Source: Thermoanaerobacterium xylanolyticum LX-11
GTDB taxonomy: Bacteria; Bacillota; Thermoanaerobacteria; Thermoanaerobacterales; Thermoanaerobacteraceae
Direction of reading: 5' to 3'
DNA length: 64,000 bases
Assembly: GCF_000189775.2 (NCBI RefSeq)
Contig: NC_015555.1
Span: forward strand, 941,001-1,005,000
Position numbers and translations under genes: made by a program. The notes under the pieces are model-generated. The model searched no databases. It was given only the letters and a program-made list of their open reading frames with translations, and was not told where the DNA came from. Positions 32,969-41,802 of this stretch are shown piece by piece. Positions within the stretch are counted from its first letter, which is position 1; every line of letters begins with the position of its first letter.

Positions 32969-33006
32969 TAAAAAAGGAATATGAAGACAAATGTCATCAT
33001 ATTCCT
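32969..33006 (-). terminator. Riboswitch-controlled terminator upstream of gcvT
   Basis: AGGAATATGA/TCATATTCCT (32976-33006) followed on the minus strand by a seven-base T-run, directly downstream of the second glycine aptamer. Confidence 0.88.
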
Positions 33007-33180
33007 CTGTATCATGACCTGAGAGTTTCTACCAAAAGGTATTGCCCCATCGGTGCCATATGGCTTTCCAGAGTCCCATCAAATAGCGATTAATTTGCCT
33101 GAGAGATTTTATGAAGCCGTGACCCACTTCATATTGCTCCTTCGGCCACCTTAAAAGGTGTCTCTCGCTATTCTCATCTG
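33007..33180 (-). promoter_or_regulatory. Tandem glycine riboswitch
   Basis: On the minus strand two successive aptamers are recognisable by their conserved blocks. Aptamer 1: GCGAGAGACACC, GGTGGCCGAAGGAGCAA, TCTCTCAGGCAAA. Aptamer 2: GATGGGACTCTGGAAAGCC, CACCGATGGGGCAAT, ACTCTCAGGTC. This is the glycine-sensing tandem found before gcv operons. With the terminator that follows, glycine binding should permit read-through into gcvT-gcvH-gcvPA-gcvPB. Confidence 0.95.
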
Positions 33181-35238: not shown

Positions 35239-35279
35239 AAGGAGGTGTGAAACCTGTTTGATACAGGTTTGCTGCTTTG
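35239..35279 (+). promoter_or_regulatory. RBS-hairpin-start module 1 (P-type ATPase)
   Basis: AAGGAGG (35239-35245), then TGTG, a 7-bp perfect stem AAACCTG/CAGGTTT (35250-35270, 7-nt loop), then six bases and TTG 35277. The linear gap is 31 nt; folded it is 10. An in-frame TGA at 35259 rules out any earlier start. Confidence 0.75.
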
Positions 35280-38051
35280 AAAACAGATGATATATTTAGA
35301 ATGACAGAAGATCAATTGTTTAAAGAATTAGACACATCTATAAAAGGCATTTCAAAAGAAGAGGCCAAAAAAAGGTTAGAAAAATATGGATACAACGAAA
35401 TAAAAGAAGTCAAAAAGACATCCATGTTTTCAAGATTCATAGCAAATTTTACACATCTATTGGCAATTCTTCTTTGGATAGCCAGCATACTTTCTTTTGT
35501 AGGTGGCATGCCACAACTTGGATGGGCAATAATACTTGTAATAATTGTAAATGCTTTGTTTAGCTTCTGGCAGGAGTTTAAGGCAGAACAAGCGACAGAA
35601 AGCCTTAAGAAGATGTTGCCATCGTATGTGAAAGTCATAAGAGACGGTCAACAAGAACAAATATTAGCACGTGAATTAGTTCCAGGAGATGTTATATACC
35701 TTGAAGAAGGCGATCATGTGCCTGCAGATGCAAGGCTCATCGAAGCTTTTGAGATGAGGACTATTAATGCTGCATTGACAGGGGAATCAGAGCCTGTAAG
35801 AAGGACATCTGACGTTGTCTTAGACGATGATGTATCGCTTATACAAGCGCCAAATCTGGTTTTTATGGGGACAAATGTTGCGTCTGGTTCTGGAACTGCA
35901 GTTGTCTACGCTACAGGCATGAATACCCAATTTGGCAAGATAGCTTCATTGACACAGACTATAAGCGCAGAGCAAAGCCCGCTGCAAAAGCAGCTTACGA
36001 GAGTTGCAAAGGTGATAGCGTATTTGTCTCTTGTGATGGGAGTATTTTTCTTCCTTTTAGGCCTTTTGATGGGAAGATCTTTGGTTGATACGTTTATGTT
36101 TGCAATAGGTATAATCACAGCCAATGTACCTGAGGGATTATTGCCGACTGTGACATTAGCGCTTGCAATGGGTGTACAGCGAATGGCAAAAAGACATGCT
36201 TTAGTGAAGAAACTTTCCAGCGTTGAGACATTAGGCGGTGCAACGGTTATTTGCACAGACAAGACGGGGACACTGACGCAAAATGAGATGACTGTAAGGG
36301 AAATCTGGACTAAAGTGGCATATTACAATGTAAGTGGTGTGGGATATGAACCAAAAGGCGACTTTTATGTTGATGACCAAAAGGTAGATGTCAAAAATCT
36401 TCCTAATGAACTTTCATTGCTGTTAAAAATAGGTTTATTGTGCAACAACAGCCGATTAGTTAGGCCTACAGATGAGAACCCCTCCTGGGGAATAATAGGC
36501 GACCCTACAGAAGGCTCGCTGGTGGTGCTGGCAGAGAAAGCTGGATTTACATTAGAAGAGATGTTGAGGGAATATCCGAGAATATCTCAACTGCCATTTG
36601 ATTCAAGGCGGAAAAGGATGACTTCCATACATAAGTATGGAAAAGAAATTTACGTATTTACTAAAGGTGCACCAAAAGAAACCCTATCAGTTTGCAATTA
36701 CATTTTAAGCGATGACGGCATCAAAAAATTGGAGCAGTCGGATATAGATGATATAGTTAAACAAAATGATAAATTTGCTGAATCGGGCCTTAGAGTGCTT
36801 GCAATGGCATACAAAAAAATAGATAATGAGATTAAAGAATATAGCATCGAAAATGTGGAAAACGACTTGATTTTTGTAGGCTTAGTTGCAATGATGGATC
36901 CGCCAAGGCCTGAAGTCGAATTGGCTGTCAAACAGGCACACAAAGCTGGCATAAAGATCATCATGATAACAGGTGACTATGGATTGACGGCTGAGTCAAT
37001 CGCAAGAAGGATAGGCATAGTGAAAGGACCAAGGCCAAGGATAATAACAGGCAATGAATTGGACAAGATGTCTGACGAAGATCTGAAGAAAGAATTGAAG
37101 AATAAGGAGATAATATTTGCCAGAGTTGCTCCAGAACACAAGATGAAAGTTGTGGCTGCTTTGAAAGATATGGGTGAAGTGGTGGCTGTTACAGGTGATG
37201 GTGTCAACGATTCGCCTGCATTAAAGAAAGCCGATATAGGCATTGCAATGGGAAAATCAGGAACAGATGTGGCAAGAGAAGTGGCTACGATGGTCCTGAC
37301 AGATGATAATTTTGCCAGCATTGTAAATGCCATAGAAGAAGGCAGAGCAGTTTACGACAACGTCAGGAAGTTTATAACGTACATCTTTGCACACTTGACA
37401 CCAGAGGCAATACCATATATCTTGTTTTCACTGTTTAATATTCCTGTACCTATAACGGTAATGCAGATATTGGCTATAGATTTAGGTACTGAGACGTTGC
37501 CAGCTCTTGCTCTTGGCGTGGAGCCGCCTGAGCCCGGTGTCATGGATAGACCACCTAGATCGCCAAAAGAAAAGCTTCTGAATTTGTCGTTGTTTTTAAG
37601 AGGCTACGTGTTATTGGGCATAATAAGCTCAATAGCTGTTCTATCTGGATATTTCTGGGTTCTGTACAGCGGTGGATGGCATTGGGGAATGACGCTTCCT
37701 CTGTCTGACCCATTGGCAAGAAAGGCTGCTACAATGAGCTTTTTGGGGATAGTCATTATGCAGGTGGCAAATGTATTTGCATGCCGTACAGAGGTTGCTT
37801 CAATGTTCAGTGTAAGTTTCTTCAAAAATAGATTGCTAAACATTGGTGTGGTCTTTGAGCTGGTTTTAACTGCGCTGCTTATATATGTTCCGTTTTTGCA
37901 GAAGATATTTGATACGTATCCTGTGCCATTTAAGAATTGGCTGTTTTACGTGGCGTTTATGCCATTACTCATAGGTGCTGAAGAGATAAGGAAGTATATA
38001 CTTCGCAGGAAAATTGCATCAAATCAAAAGGAGGTGAAAGGCTCTATATGA
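35277..38051 (+). CDS. P2-type cation-transporting ATPase (Na+,K+-ATPase-like)
   Basis: 924 aa. N-terminal cation ATPase domain, TGES (168-171), membrane motif ANVPEGLLPTVTLAL (residues ~282-296), phosphorylation Asp328 in CTDKTGTLT, and the hinge VAVTGDGVNDSPALKKADIGIAMG. ANVPEGLL and the C-terminal AIDLGTETLPALALGVE resemble the IIC (Na+,K+/H+,K+) subtype more than SERCA. About ten membrane helices. It is followed by two TrkA-like NAD-binding genes, which suggests potassium- or sodium-linked transport under nucleotide control. Initiation uses the hairpin-spaced TTG described at 35239. The C-terminus (NQKEVKGSI) encodes the next gene's ribosome-binding site. Confidence 0.93.
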   Translation: MKTDDIFRMTEDQLFKELDTSIKGISKEEAKKRLEKYGYNEIKEVKKTSMFSRFIANFTHLLAILLWIASILSFVGGMPQLGWAIILVIIVNALFSFWQEFKAEQATESLKKMLPSYVKVIRDGQQEQILARELVPGDVIYLEEGDHVPADARLIEAFEMRTINAALTGESEPVRRTSDVVLDDDVSLIQAPNLVFMGTNVASGSGTAVVYATGMNTQFGKIASLTQTISAEQSPLQKQLTRVAKVIAYLSLVMGVFFFLLGLLMGRSLVDTFMFAIGIITANVPEGLLPTVTLALAMGVQRMAKRHALVKKLSSVETLGGATVICTDKTGTLTQNEMTVREIWTKVAYYNVSGVGYEPKGDFYVDDQKVDVKNLPNELSLLLKIGLLCNNSRLVRPTDENPSWGIIGDPTEGSLVVLAEKAGFTLEEMLREYPRISQLPFDSRRKRMTSIHKYGKEIYVFTKGAPKETLSVCNYILSDDGIKKLEQSDIDDIVKQNDKFAESGLRVLAMAYKKIDNEIKEYSIENVENDLIFVGLVAMMDPPRPEVELAVKQAHKAGIKIIMITGDYGLTAESIARRIGIVKGPRPRIITGNELDKMSDEDLKKELKNKEIIFARVAPEHKMKVVAALKDMGEVVAVTGDGVNDSPALKKADIGIAMGKSGTDVAREVATMVLTDDNFASIVNAIEEGRAVYDNVRKFITYIFAHLTPEAIPYILFSLFNIPVPITVMQILAIDLGTETLPALALGVEPPEPGVMDRPPRSPKEKLLNLSLFLRGYVLLGIISSIAVLSGYFWVLYSGGWHWGMTLPLSDPLARKAATMSFLGIVIMQVANVFACRTEVASMFSVSFFKNRLLNIGVVFELVLTALLIYVPFLQKIFDTYPVPFKNWLFYVAFMPLLIGAEEIRKYILRRKIASNQKEVKGSI

Positions 38052-38063
38052 GCCTGATTTATG
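38028..38063 (+). promoter_or_regulatory. RBS-hairpin-start module 2 (first TrkA-like gene)
   Basis: AAAGGAGG (38028-38034 plus T/G), then TGAA, perfect 6-bp stem AGGCTC-TATAT-GAGCCT (38039-38055), five bases and ATG 38061. Linear gap 26 nt, folded about 9. The ATPase stop TGA (38049-38051) lies at the loop/stem edge, so translating ribosomes would melt the hairpin and release it on termination. Confidence 0.75.
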
Positions 38064-38705
38064 AATATAATTGTTGCTGGATGCGGCAGGCTTGGAGCTG
38101 AGTTGGCACAGATGTTAGATTCAGATGGCTATAGTGTCGTAGTCATAGACAAAGACGTAAATGCCTTTAAAAGATTGAAGCCTTCTTTTAAAGGAAAGTT
38201 CATTGAAGGCGTTGCTTTTGACAAGGCTACTTTAATAAAAGCAGGTATTGAACATGCAGATGCTGTTGCATCAACTACAAACGGTGATAACACTAATATC
38301 GTTACGGCTTTGATTGCAAAAAAGAAATTTAATGTTCCTACTATTGTGGCAAGGATATATGACCCCATAAGAGCTGAAATATACAGAAAAATGGGCATAA
38401 ATACTGTATCTCCTACATTATGGGGTGCAAATAAGATGAAGGATTTGATTTGTCATCCTGATCTTTTTAGGATTTCGTCATTTGGCAGTGGCGAAGTGGA
38501 AATAGTAGAGACAGAAGCTTCAGCTTATTTGGATGGGCGTTACGTAAAAGATTTAGTAATTCCGTCAGAAGTGAATGTAGTCAGCATAGTAAGAGATGGC
38601 ATCGCTATAATTCCAACACAAAGCACAGTTGTGAAAAAAGGAGATAAGATATTTATAGCCGTTACAGCTTTTGGAAAGACAAAGATGAAACAGATGTTTA
38701 TGTAA
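38061..38705 (+). CDS. TrkA-like NAD-binding potassium transport regulator (first copy)
   Basis: 214 aa. TrkA-N Rossmann domain MNIIVAGCGRLGAELAQML with the acidic residue in VVIDKD and ATNGDNTNIVTALIAKKKF; TrkA-C domain from ~135 (VEIVETEASAYLDGRYVKDL...). Such proteins bind NAD(H)/ATP and gate Trk/Ktr channels, but no TrkH/KtrB subunit is encoded here. The only transporter in the operon is the P2-type ATPase. Confidence 0.92.
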   Translation: MNIIVAGCGRLGAELAQMLDSDGYSVVVIDKDVNAFKRLKPSFKGKFIEGVAFDKATLIKAGIEHADAVASTTNGDNTNIVTALIAKKKFNVPTIVARIYDPIRAEIYRKMGINTVSPTLWGANKMKDLICHPDLFRISSFGSGEVEIVETEASAYLDGRYVKDLVIPSEVNVVSIVRDGIAIIPTQSTVVKKGDKIFIAVTAFGKTKMKQMFM

Positions 38706-38713
38706 ATATTGGT

Positions 38714-38776
38714 AAGGAGGTGAAAAAACCTGACGGAAACAATAAATATGTTTCCAAATTGCAGGTTATAATCATG
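38714..38776 (+). promoter_or_regulatory. RBS-hairpin-start module 3 (second TrkA-like gene)
   Basis: AAGGAGG (38714-38720), then TGAAAA, a two-part stem: outer AACCTG/CAGGTT (38727-38732, 38762-38767) and inner GGAAAC/GTTTCC (38735-38740, 38750-38755), then six bases and ATG 38774. Linear gap 53 nt, folded about 12. Confidence 0.75.
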
Positions 38777-39436
38777 TCAATAATGATCGTTGGTGCTGGT
38801 AGATTGGGCTTATATCTTGCTCAATTGATGAATGAAAGGCAAGAAAAAGTTGTCGTGATTGAAAAAGATGAATCAAAGATTGATAAACTAAGGAAAGAAT
38901 TAAAGTGTGACATAGTGATTGGAGATGGCTGTAATTCGGATGTTTTAAAAAAAGCTGGAATAATAGGAACGGATATTGTTGTCGCTGCCACAGGGCATGA
39001 TGAGGACAATCTTATAATTTGTCAACTGGCAAAATACGAGTTTGGCGTATCGAGAGTAGTATCCAGGATAAACAATCCAAAAAATGACTGGCTTTTTACT
39101 AAAGATATGGGAGTAGATGCGGCTGTAAGCAGTGCCAGGATAATTGCAAGGTTAATAGAAGAAGAAGCTGAAATAAGCGGGCTTACAACCATAATCAATC
39201 TTTCAGAAGGGAAAATCTCTATCGTAAGGAGCATCATTGAAAGAGGCTCCAATGCTGCCAATAAAATGATAAAAGACTTAATGTTGCCGAATAACTGCGT
39301 TATCATGTCGGTAGTAAGAAACAACAAAGTTTTGCTTCCAAACGGTAGCACATACATCTTACCGGGTGATGAGGTCTTAAGCGTCGTAAGCGATGAGAGC
39401 AAGGAAGCATTAAAAAATATTTTTGATGCAGAGTAA
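38774..39436 (+). CDS. TrkA-like NAD-binding potassium transport regulator (second copy)
   Basis: 220 aa from ATG 38774 (MSIMIVGAGRLGLYLAQLM). An in-frame GTG at 38720 lies within the ribosome-binding site and would add an extra non-conserved 18-residue leader, so it is rejected. TrkA-N Rossmann motif GAGRLG, VVIEKDE, ATGHDEDNLIICQLAKYEF; TrkA-C from ~140. Pairs with the previous gene; many Firmicutes carry two TrkA-type proteins, but rarely attached to a P-type ATPase. Confidence 0.92.
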   Translation: MSIMIVGAGRLGLYLAQLMNERQEKVVVIEKDESKIDKLRKELKCDIVIGDGCNSDVLKKAGIIGTDIVVAATGHDEDNLIICQLAKYEFGVSRVVSRINNPKNDWLFTKDMGVDAAVSSARIIARLIEEEAEISGLTTIINLSEGKISIVRSIIERGSNAANKMIKDLMLPNNCVIMSVVRNNKVLLPNGSTYILPGDEVLSVVSDESKEALKNIFDAE

Positions 39437-39666: not shown

Positions 39667-41802
39667 TTGAATTCCTATCTACTTATCATCTATGGAGTTG
39701 TTATTATTGCAGCTCTTGCCATCATTGGTTTTATTAGGTTTATTTTCAGTCAAGACAAAGGTGACGAGAAGATGCAGCAGATCTCAGACTCCATAAAAGA
39801 AGGTGCAATGGCTTTTCTAAACAGGCAGTATAAAACGATAACAGTCCTTGCACTGATAGTTGCTGTCTTAATTATAATTGCCAATTACTATGGACATCAG
39901 GCAGAAGGTGTTGGCTCTGCCATAAGCTATGCATGGCATGTTGGATTGGCATTTATATCTGGAGCTTTGTGCTCTGCTATATCCGGCTACATAGGCATGT
40001 ACATGGCAGTAAATTCAAATGTAAGAGCAGCCAGTGGCGCAAGAAAAGGTCTTAATAAGGCTTTACAGATCGCTTTAAGAGGTGGGGCTGTTACAGGCCT
40101 TGCAGTTACAGCATTATCACTTTTTGGCGTGGCAACTTTGTTTTTCGCTTACGGTGGGGCATCTGGTCAGCAGGAATTAGTTAAAAATGCTCCATCATTG
40201 ATAGTAGGCTTTGGCTTTGGCGCTTCTTTTGTTGCGCTTTTCGCACAGTTAGGTGGTGGTATATACACAAAAGCTGCTGACGTAGGGGCTGACCTTGTCG
40301 GCAAGGTAGAAGCAGGCATTCCAGAGGATGATCCAAGAAATCCTGCAGTAATCGCTGATTTGGTTGGCGATAACGTCGGAGATTGTGCTGGTAGGGGAGC
40401 CGACCTGTTTGAATCAACAGCCGCTGAAAATATAGGCGCTATGATTTTGGGTGTAGGCTTGTATCCTGTCTTTGGATTAAAGGGAATATTGTTCCCACTT
40501 GTAGCACGTGCAATAGGAATAATCGCTTCAATTATCGGCATTGTATTCGTAAACACAAAAGACGAATCAAAAGATCCTATGATTGCTTTAAACAAAGGAT
40601 ATTTTGTGACAACGATAATAAATATAATTGTGCTTTTCTTCGCTGTTAAAATTATGTTATCAGGTCATCTTTCAAATGGAAATAGCGTAAATTATCTGCT
40701 TCTATATGGTGCAGCAGTTGCAGGTATACTTTTAAGCTACGTATTTGTATTTTTGACAAATTACTACACATCTATGAGTAAAAGACCAGTTCAAGAGATC
40801 GCAAAGGCTTCAACAACCGGTGCTGCGACAAATATAATTACAGGTATTTCTGTAGGTATGGAGTCTCCGGCACTTCCTGTACTGTTTATTTCAGCAGCAA
40901 TAGTTATTGCATATAGGCTTGGTCAGCTTGCACTTCCTAATATAGCAACAGCAGGCTTCTACGGTACTGCTATAGCTACAATGGGAATGCTGTCTACAAC
41001 TGCTTATATATTAGCAATGGATACTTTTGGCCCTATTACTGACAACGCAGGTGGAATCACTGAAATGTCCGAAGCACCTGAGTCAGTAAGGCTTGTAACA
41101 GATAGGCTTGATGCATGTGGAAATACGACAAAGGCGTTGACAAAAGGCTATGCAGTAGGATCTGCAGCGCTGGCTACATTCCTCCTTTTCTCTGCATATC
41201 TTGATGAAGTTAAGAAAATACTTGGCAAACCTATCGATTCTTGGTTTGCTGTAGACATAGGCAAACCAGAGGTTTTCATAGGAGCATTTATAGGTGCTAT
41301 GATAGTATTTCTCTTTAGCTCAACAGCTATAAGAGCTGTTGGTAAAGCGGCACAATACGTCATACTGGAAGTCAGAAGGCAATTTAAAGAAAACCCAGGT
41401 ATTATGGAAGGCACATCAAAGCCAGACTACGCGAAAACAGTTGATATAGTTACAAAAGGTGCATTGAAAGAGATGGTTATCCCCGGTCTTATAGTCGTTG
41501 TGGCGCCTATCTTAGTTGGTATTTTGCTTGGCAAAGAATCTGCAGCAGCGTTTTTGATGGTTGGCACTATATCTGGTGTAATAATGGCTTTGTTCTTGAA
41601 TAACGGTGGTGGTGCTTGGGATAACGCTAAAAAATATATTGAATTAGGTAATTACGGTGGCAAAAAGTCTGAAGCCCATAAAGCAGGTGTTGTAGGCGAT
41701 ACAGTCGGTGATCCATTTAAAGACACTGCAGGTCCATCATTACACGTTTTGATAAAGCTTATAAGCACTATCACGCTTGTGTTTGCATCCTTGTTTAGAT
41801 AA
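39667..41802 (+). CDS. hppA: Membrane-bound ion-translocating pyrophosphatase
   Basis: 711 aa from TTG 39667 behind AAAGGAGATGG. About 16 membrane helices. Pyrophosphate-binding motifs DVGADLVGKVEAGIPEDDPRNP, IADLVGDNVGDCAGRGADLFE and the C-terminal GDTVGDPFKDTAGPS are intact. The position that decides K+ dependence is Lys489 in ACGNTTKALTKGYAVGS; the lysine form is that of K+-independent, H+-pumping enzymes, whereas K+-dependent ones carry Ala. Conserves energy from PPi, consistent with PPi-linked glycolysis in this group. Na+ pumping is unlikely but not excluded. Confidence 0.95.
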   Translation: MNSYLLIIYGVVIIAALAIIGFIRFIFSQDKGDEKMQQISDSIKEGAMAFLNRQYKTITVLALIVAVLIIIANYYGHQAEGVGSAISYAWHVGLAFISGALCSAISGYIGMYMAVNSNVRAASGARKGLNKALQIALRGGAVTGLAVTALSLFGVATLFFAYGGASGQQELVKNAPSLIVGFGFGASFVALFAQLGGGIYTKAADVGADLVGKVEAGIPEDDPRNPAVIADLVGDNVGDCAGRGADLFESTAAENIGAMILGVGLYPVFGLKGILFPLVARAIGIIASIIGIVFVNTKDESKDPMIALNKGYFVTTIINIIVLFFAVKIMLSGHLSNGNSVNYLLLYGAAVAGILLSYVFVFLTNYYTSMSKRPVQEIAKASTTGAATNIITGISVGMESPALPVLFISAAIVIAYRLGQLALPNIATAGFYGTAIATMGMLSTTAYILAMDTFGPITDNAGGITEMSEAPESVRLVTDRLDACGNTTKALTKGYAVGSAALATFLLFSAYLDEVKKILGKPIDSWFAVDIGKPEVFIGAFIGAMIVFLFSSTAIRAVGKAAQYVILEVRRQFKENPGIMEGTSKPDYAKTVDIVTKGALKEMVIPGLIVVVAPILVGILLGKESAAAFLMVGTISGVIMALFLNNGGGAWDNAKKYIELGNYGGKKSEAHKAGVVGDTVGDPFKDTAGPSLHVLIKLISTITLVFASLFR

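Follow-up and report, generated by a model that had tools for sequence, protein, structure and literature searches.

Probable hairpin-split ribosome-binding sites at all three genes of a P-type ATPase/TrkA/TrkA operon in Thermoanaerobacterium

The locus described here lies in a 64,000-nucleotide stretch of DNA from Thermoanaerobacterium xylanolyticum LX-11 (the window; coordinates count from its first nucleotide), whose genome comprises 2.53 Mb in a single contig. An operon on the plus strand (35239-39436) encodes a P-type ATPase followed by two TrkA-type proteins, and each of its three genes has a Shine-Dalgarno (SD) sequence that is separated from the start codon by an inverted repeat able to form a hairpin. 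In 5' to 3' order, the features are:

35239-35247, + strand: SD of gene 1, AAGGAGGTG, kept in 8/8 genomes (GGGAGGTG in L045)
35250-35270, + strand: hairpin 1, AAACCTGT-TTGAT-ACAGGTTT, 8 bp, arms 35250-35257 and 35263-35270
35277-38051, + strand: gene 1, P-type (type II) cation ATPase, 924 aa, TTG start; Pfam Cation_ATPase_N, E1-E2_ATPase and Cation_ATPase_C
38028-38036, + strand: SD of gene 2, AAGGAGGTG, within the 3' end of gene 1
38039-38055, + strand: hairpin 2, AGGCTC-TATAT-GAGCCT, arms 38039-38044 and 38050-38055; includes the gene 1 stop codon (38049-38051)
38061-38705, + strand: gene 2, TrkA_N/TrkA_C (RCK-type) protein, 214 aa; Pfam TrkA_N from residue 3
38714-38722, + strand: SD of gene 3, AAGGAGGTG; AGGAGGTG invariant in 7 distinct alignment rows
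38727-38767, + strand: hairpin 3, AACCTG/CAGGTT, arms 38727-38732 and 38762-38767; nested GGAAAC/GTTTCC at 38735-38740 and 38750-38755
38774-39436, + strand: gene 3, second TrkA_N/TrkA_C protein, 220 aa, ATG start; Pfam TrkA_N from residue 3

The best solved relative of the ATPase is the Ca-ATPase lmo0841, and the nearest solved relatives are a bacterial Ca-ATPase and the Na,K-ATPase; in the NCBIfam comparison, the ATPase equivalogs all stayed below cut-off. The gene 2 protein is 96-97% identical to its counterparts in Thermoanaerobacterium saccharolyticum NTOU1 and a Thermoanaerobacterium MAG. The neighborhood also holds a large membrane protein gene resembling H+-translocating pyrophosphatase, located 3' of the operon (39667-41802) and provided with an ordinary SD, and a tandem glycine riboswitch with two aptamers (Rfam RF00504) on the minus strand at 33005-33177. 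Genome G018 additionally has, away from the operon (~431-434 kb, L051), another pair of TrkA-domain genes, which has diverged.

Measured from the end of GGAGG, the start codons of genes 1, 2 and 3 follow at 31, 26 and 53 nt, the same values as in an earlier note on this DNA that had described near-perfect SDs too far from their starts. These distances are beyond the spacing of ordinary initiation, the first characteristic of a split ribosome-binding site of the T4 gene 25/38 type. All three hairpins announced in that note are there, the first having 8 bp and thus one more than had been written, and subtraction of the full stems leaves the 10 (gene 1), 9 (gene 2) and 12 nt (gene 3) that had been claimed. 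The arms AACCTG/CAGGTT are common to genes 1 and 3 and the stem of gene 2 differs, such that the notion of varying stems within a kept geometry holds for the geometry but not for every stem. The upstream SDs are predicted to pair with the 3' end of 16S rRNA at -16 to -18 kcal/mol (-16 for gene 1), and anything near the start codons at about -3.5 kcal/mol.

The TTG at 35277 is present in 8/8 genomes as the start of gene 1, and the frame upstream of it is closed by a stop codon (TGA or TAA) inside the hairpin in seven of the eight, in the window by the TGA at 35259 to which the earlier note had drawn attention. The internal ATG at 35301 was rejected as a start for this gene, as it is ATT, TTG or TTA in other genomes. 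Candidate starts upstream of gene 2 are out of frame or then run into stops, and ATG 38061 itself lies after in-frame stops. For gene 3, GTG 38720 and TTG 38759 are lost elsewhere through indels, substitution or an in-frame TAA (a TAA of this kind lies upstream of the start in L047-L050), and ATG 38774 is constant across genomes. Earlier starts of genes 2 and 3, described in that note as poorly placed, are excluded by frame breaks, stops and codons lost in other genomes. The Pfam domains of the three proteins begin at residues 3-9.

Conservation was assessed in the Thermoanaerobacterium-genus genomes covering the locus (n=8 for gene 1, n=9 for genes 2 and 3), with duplicate records of one assembly (e.g. 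L046/L022, L048/L024) counted once. The order SD, hairpin, start codon was found in 8/8 genomes for gene 1 and in 9/9 for genes 2 and 3, one of them with a mismatch in the gene 2 stem. When the three spacers were pooled, 4/52 stem columns varied versus 26/55 unpaired ones (Fisher p = 3.3e-6, to be taken as indicative since columns are not independent events). At gene 1, 35 of the 44 columns upstream vary versus 1/9 in the SD and 0/16 in the stem arms; the loop of hairpin 1 reads TTGAT, TTAAT or TTAT and differs in length by one in L050, the linear spacing is 30-31 nt, and the remainder is always 10. At gene 2, the spacing is 26 nt with a constant remainder, and the hairpin is kept in 8/9 genomes, in one of these 8 minus a terminal pair. 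In the MAG L023, with a coverage of about 4x, AGACTC stands opposite GAGCCT, which introduces an internal mismatch, and this version of hairpin 2 is predicted to be unfolded at 60 °C. The C-terminal residues of the ATPase are encoded within hairpin 2, where third codon positions hardly vary; in the 54 nt of coding sequence 5' of the gene 2 hairpin region, 28 columns vary.

The linear spacing of gene 3 is 52, 53, 54 or 55 nt and the looped part measures 39-42 nt, with a remainder, counted from the ACCTG arms, of 13 everywhere except in the window (14); the flanking pieces offset each other, being 6+7 in one clade and 7+6 in the other. Indels combined with a near-constant remainder are what a looped-out site predicts, and are predicted neither by a protein-coding nor by a simple linear reading. 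Of the cells of the 12 pairs in hairpin 3, 98.8% are paired, and ten pairs never vary; one pair changes from A-U to G-U in three rows and one stem-end pair is broken in one row. Alignment of the leaders of relatives, suggested earlier as a search for compensatory changes, thus confirmed that the stems are conserved but yielded no double-sided change in the genus alignments, the one G-U-compatible change being that in hairpin 3, because the stems vary too little. Pairing has been kept almost unchallenged, so primary sequence may be what selection acts on, and in these alignments the two cannot be separated.

How often such a layout arises by chance was gauged in 764 kb of the source genome, taken as stretches that make up about 30% of the total and on which the genome-wide frequency rests. 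SD-like sites numbered 730 at ordinary spacing in this sample; a further 62 were distant. With a stem defined by a pairing score of at least 16 and 5-13 nt left over, four of the 62 distant-SD leaders qualified, whereas 200 shuffles of the spacers gave 0.4 on average and never more than 3. The four stems were those of genes 1 and 2, of a fourth gene elsewhere and of an FtsQ-like gene that was later rejected; gene 3 does not appear in this count, as the scan chose an in-frame TTG as its start. Taken alone, the shuffle count is modest evidence, and it is the comparative evidence that decides: chance is ruled out because the layout is conserved across the genus. No further convincing case turned up in 200 kb of genome G017 or in 200 kb from another genus of the family, which indicates that the design is rare. 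As to the FtsQ-like gene, its 12-bp hairpin was discarded as part of a split site since the SD-like AAGGA is not kept and a downstream start has a site of its own; the hairpin as such (L089:3959-3998) is kept at this junction in 9/9 genomes (L159-L167) and overlaps the upstream stop codon. Candidates in L094, L096 and L084 sit within longer open frames and were likewise set aside.

The fourth leader lies at about 898.6 kb of the source genome (L087:18644), in front of a 439-aa gene whose product, judged by reading its sequence, appears to be phosphodiester glycosidase-like. It reads GGAGG ataa[GGAATAAC..GTTGTTCC]aattgat ATG, and the layout is found in 4/4 genomes with the gene (L106-L109), two of which show an A to G change in the stem (A-U to G-U) together with a different loop. 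In genome G012 (~840-841 kb; L109, L110), the glycosidase-like gene is split into two parts and contains an internal TGA.

In other families (L111-L113, L115), the gene order ATPase-TrkA-TrkA is the same at about 40-50% identity. Here, the SD adjoins the start codon of the gene 2 homologs (aaggaggtctgatg ATG or aaggaggtaagtaga ATG), and of the gene 3 homologs, those of L113 and L115 are preceded by an ordinary SD, those of L111 and L112 by a G-rich site. Inspection by eye of the homologous operons in other families revealed no hairpin-split site, although L114 is ambiguous and the start of gene 1 is not evident in these operons. When 61 relatives were screened for the pattern, no leader beyond the genus was convincing, and no close gene 2 homolog was found in those other genera of the family that were searched. 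The design was thus probably derived within Thermoanaerobacterium, the distance to these homologs being too large for dating.

With a probability of about 0.72, we consider all three genes to carry constitutive split, or looped-out, ribosome-binding sites resembling those of T4 genes 25 and 38, in this case throughout a chromosomal operon. The RNA between the strong SD and the start codon would fold into a short hairpin that the 30S subunit would accommodate without unfolding it, and SD and start codon would end up 9-12 nt apart; by analogy with T4 genes 25 and 38, the hairpins would enable rather than block initiation. This structural reading had been put forward in the earlier note, and it is well supported by the conservation, the near-constant residual spacing and the exclusion of other starts. 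Geometry, conservation within the genus, residual spacing and start codons are direct observations, from which we infer that the hairpins form in the cell, raise initiation and are constitutive rather than switched. Gene 2 may be served in an additional way: the gene 1 stop codon lies within its hairpin, which ribosomes completing the ATPase must therefore open, and reinitiation coupled to this termination, at an ATG 10 nt further on, would probably add to expression. As isolated elements at 60 °C, hairpins 1, 2 and 3 have predicted free energies of -4.2, -4.8 and -5.7 kcal/mol and are mostly folded, and about -2.5 to -2.9 kcal/mol is still predicted for the stems at 70 °C. In a longer context, hairpin 2 competes with downstream pairing and forms in only about 60% of the ensemble predicted at 60 °C, and parts of the SDs enter other weak pairings in the predicted folds.

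The upstream SD might instead act as a standby site that only docks the 30S subunit, with a weak SD in the 3' arm being used after the hairpin has opened, in which case the hairpin would restrain translation. In E. coli, structured leaders are known to bind 30S subunits in this way (PMC3936740). In line with this, both gene 1 and gene 3 have AGGT in the 3' arm, at 6-8 nt from the start codon and with a 16S pairing of -3.7 kcal/mol, and the arms AACCTG/CAGGTT common to these two genes would be accounted for. However, the 3' arm of gene 2 offers just GAG and the fourth leader nothing SD-like (-1.2 kcal/mol), and the near-constant remainder after looping out is not predicted by such a mechanism, which we therefore regard as unlikely.

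A switch that gates the whole operon, with hairpin folding governed by temperature, ions, a small molecule or an RNA-binding protein, is suggested by the presence of three hairpins within one ion-transport operon, by the same arms at genes 1 and 3, and by the strong conservation of primary sequence. The earlier note had suggested gating, for example by temperature, Mg2+/K+ or a ligand, a proposal that, unlike its structural counterpart, found no support: the stems are predicted to be folded at 60-65 °C, at and above growth temperature, which makes thermal gating in the growth range unlikely on the folding model, and no melting in the physiological range, as expected of an RNA thermometer, is predicted. 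Moreover, the loops vary, the gene 2 stem is different, the leaders matched no family in an Rfam scan of the window (the only hit being the glycine riboswitch elsewhere), and the unrelated glycosidase-like gene has the same layout. Control of this kind is thus rather improbable. We are equally skeptical of a more elaborate version in which the three split sites act together as a single regulatory unit, where folding sensed via ions or an RNA-binding protein would set translation and stoichiometry of ATPase and TrkA proteins, with the shared AACCTG/CAGGTT arms as recognition element.

At the DNA level, hairpin 1 could be a repressor-bound operator, since it constitutes a perfect 21-bp palindrome near the probable transcription start before the first gene and is kept in 8 genomes, hairpins 2 and 3 then being unrelated. 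This is very unlikely: the palindrome occurs once per genome, which argues against a regulon sharing the hairpin, the one-nucleotide change in loop length in L050 shifts the half-sites, and genes 2 and 3 are left unexplained. Intercistronic hairpins are common, and a conserved one of 12 bp that is not a split site exists at another gene junction of this genome, but that the operon hairpins merely serve mRNA processing or stability and lie between SD and start incidentally is scarcely credible in view of their exact placement in three genes, the near-constant residual spacing and the hairpin preceding the first gene.

In the literature searched, split sites whose hairpin separates SD and start codon are described for two phage genes. 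In T4, the hairpin shortens the spacing between SD and AUG from 27 to 11 nt in gene 25 and from 22 to 5 nt in gene 38, destabilizing mutations lower initiation, and the gene 25 arrangement is limited to close T-even phages (PMC3014915). The arrangement in Thermoanaerobacterium has a similarly restricted range, namely one genus in what was searched. It differs from T4 in that the operon is chromosomal and has three separate hairpins at three consecutive genes, one of them spanning the stop codon of the preceding gene and one being compound, and in that its function is predicted from sequence. In E. coli thrS, the hairpin precedes the SD rather than separating it from the start codon. The likeness to the thrS split ribosome-binding site would consist in the ribosome accommodating a hairpin that stays folded (PMC3936740); standby sites in structured 5' UTRs are similar in that structure parts a ribosome-binding segment from the start region (PMC3936740), but in the operon the upstream segment is a near-perfect SD.

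Software that locates start codons on the assumption of a linear SD-to-start distance can put those of split-site genes in the wrong place, and the natural variants of the operon, with spacers of 26 to 55 nt and simple as well as nested hairpins, are usable for testing how the ribosome measures the distance from SD to start. A bacterial operon with a split site at every gene, conserved throughout its genus and accompanied by at least one further case elsewhere in its genome, would show that this design is in use, and has been kept, on bacterial chromosomes.
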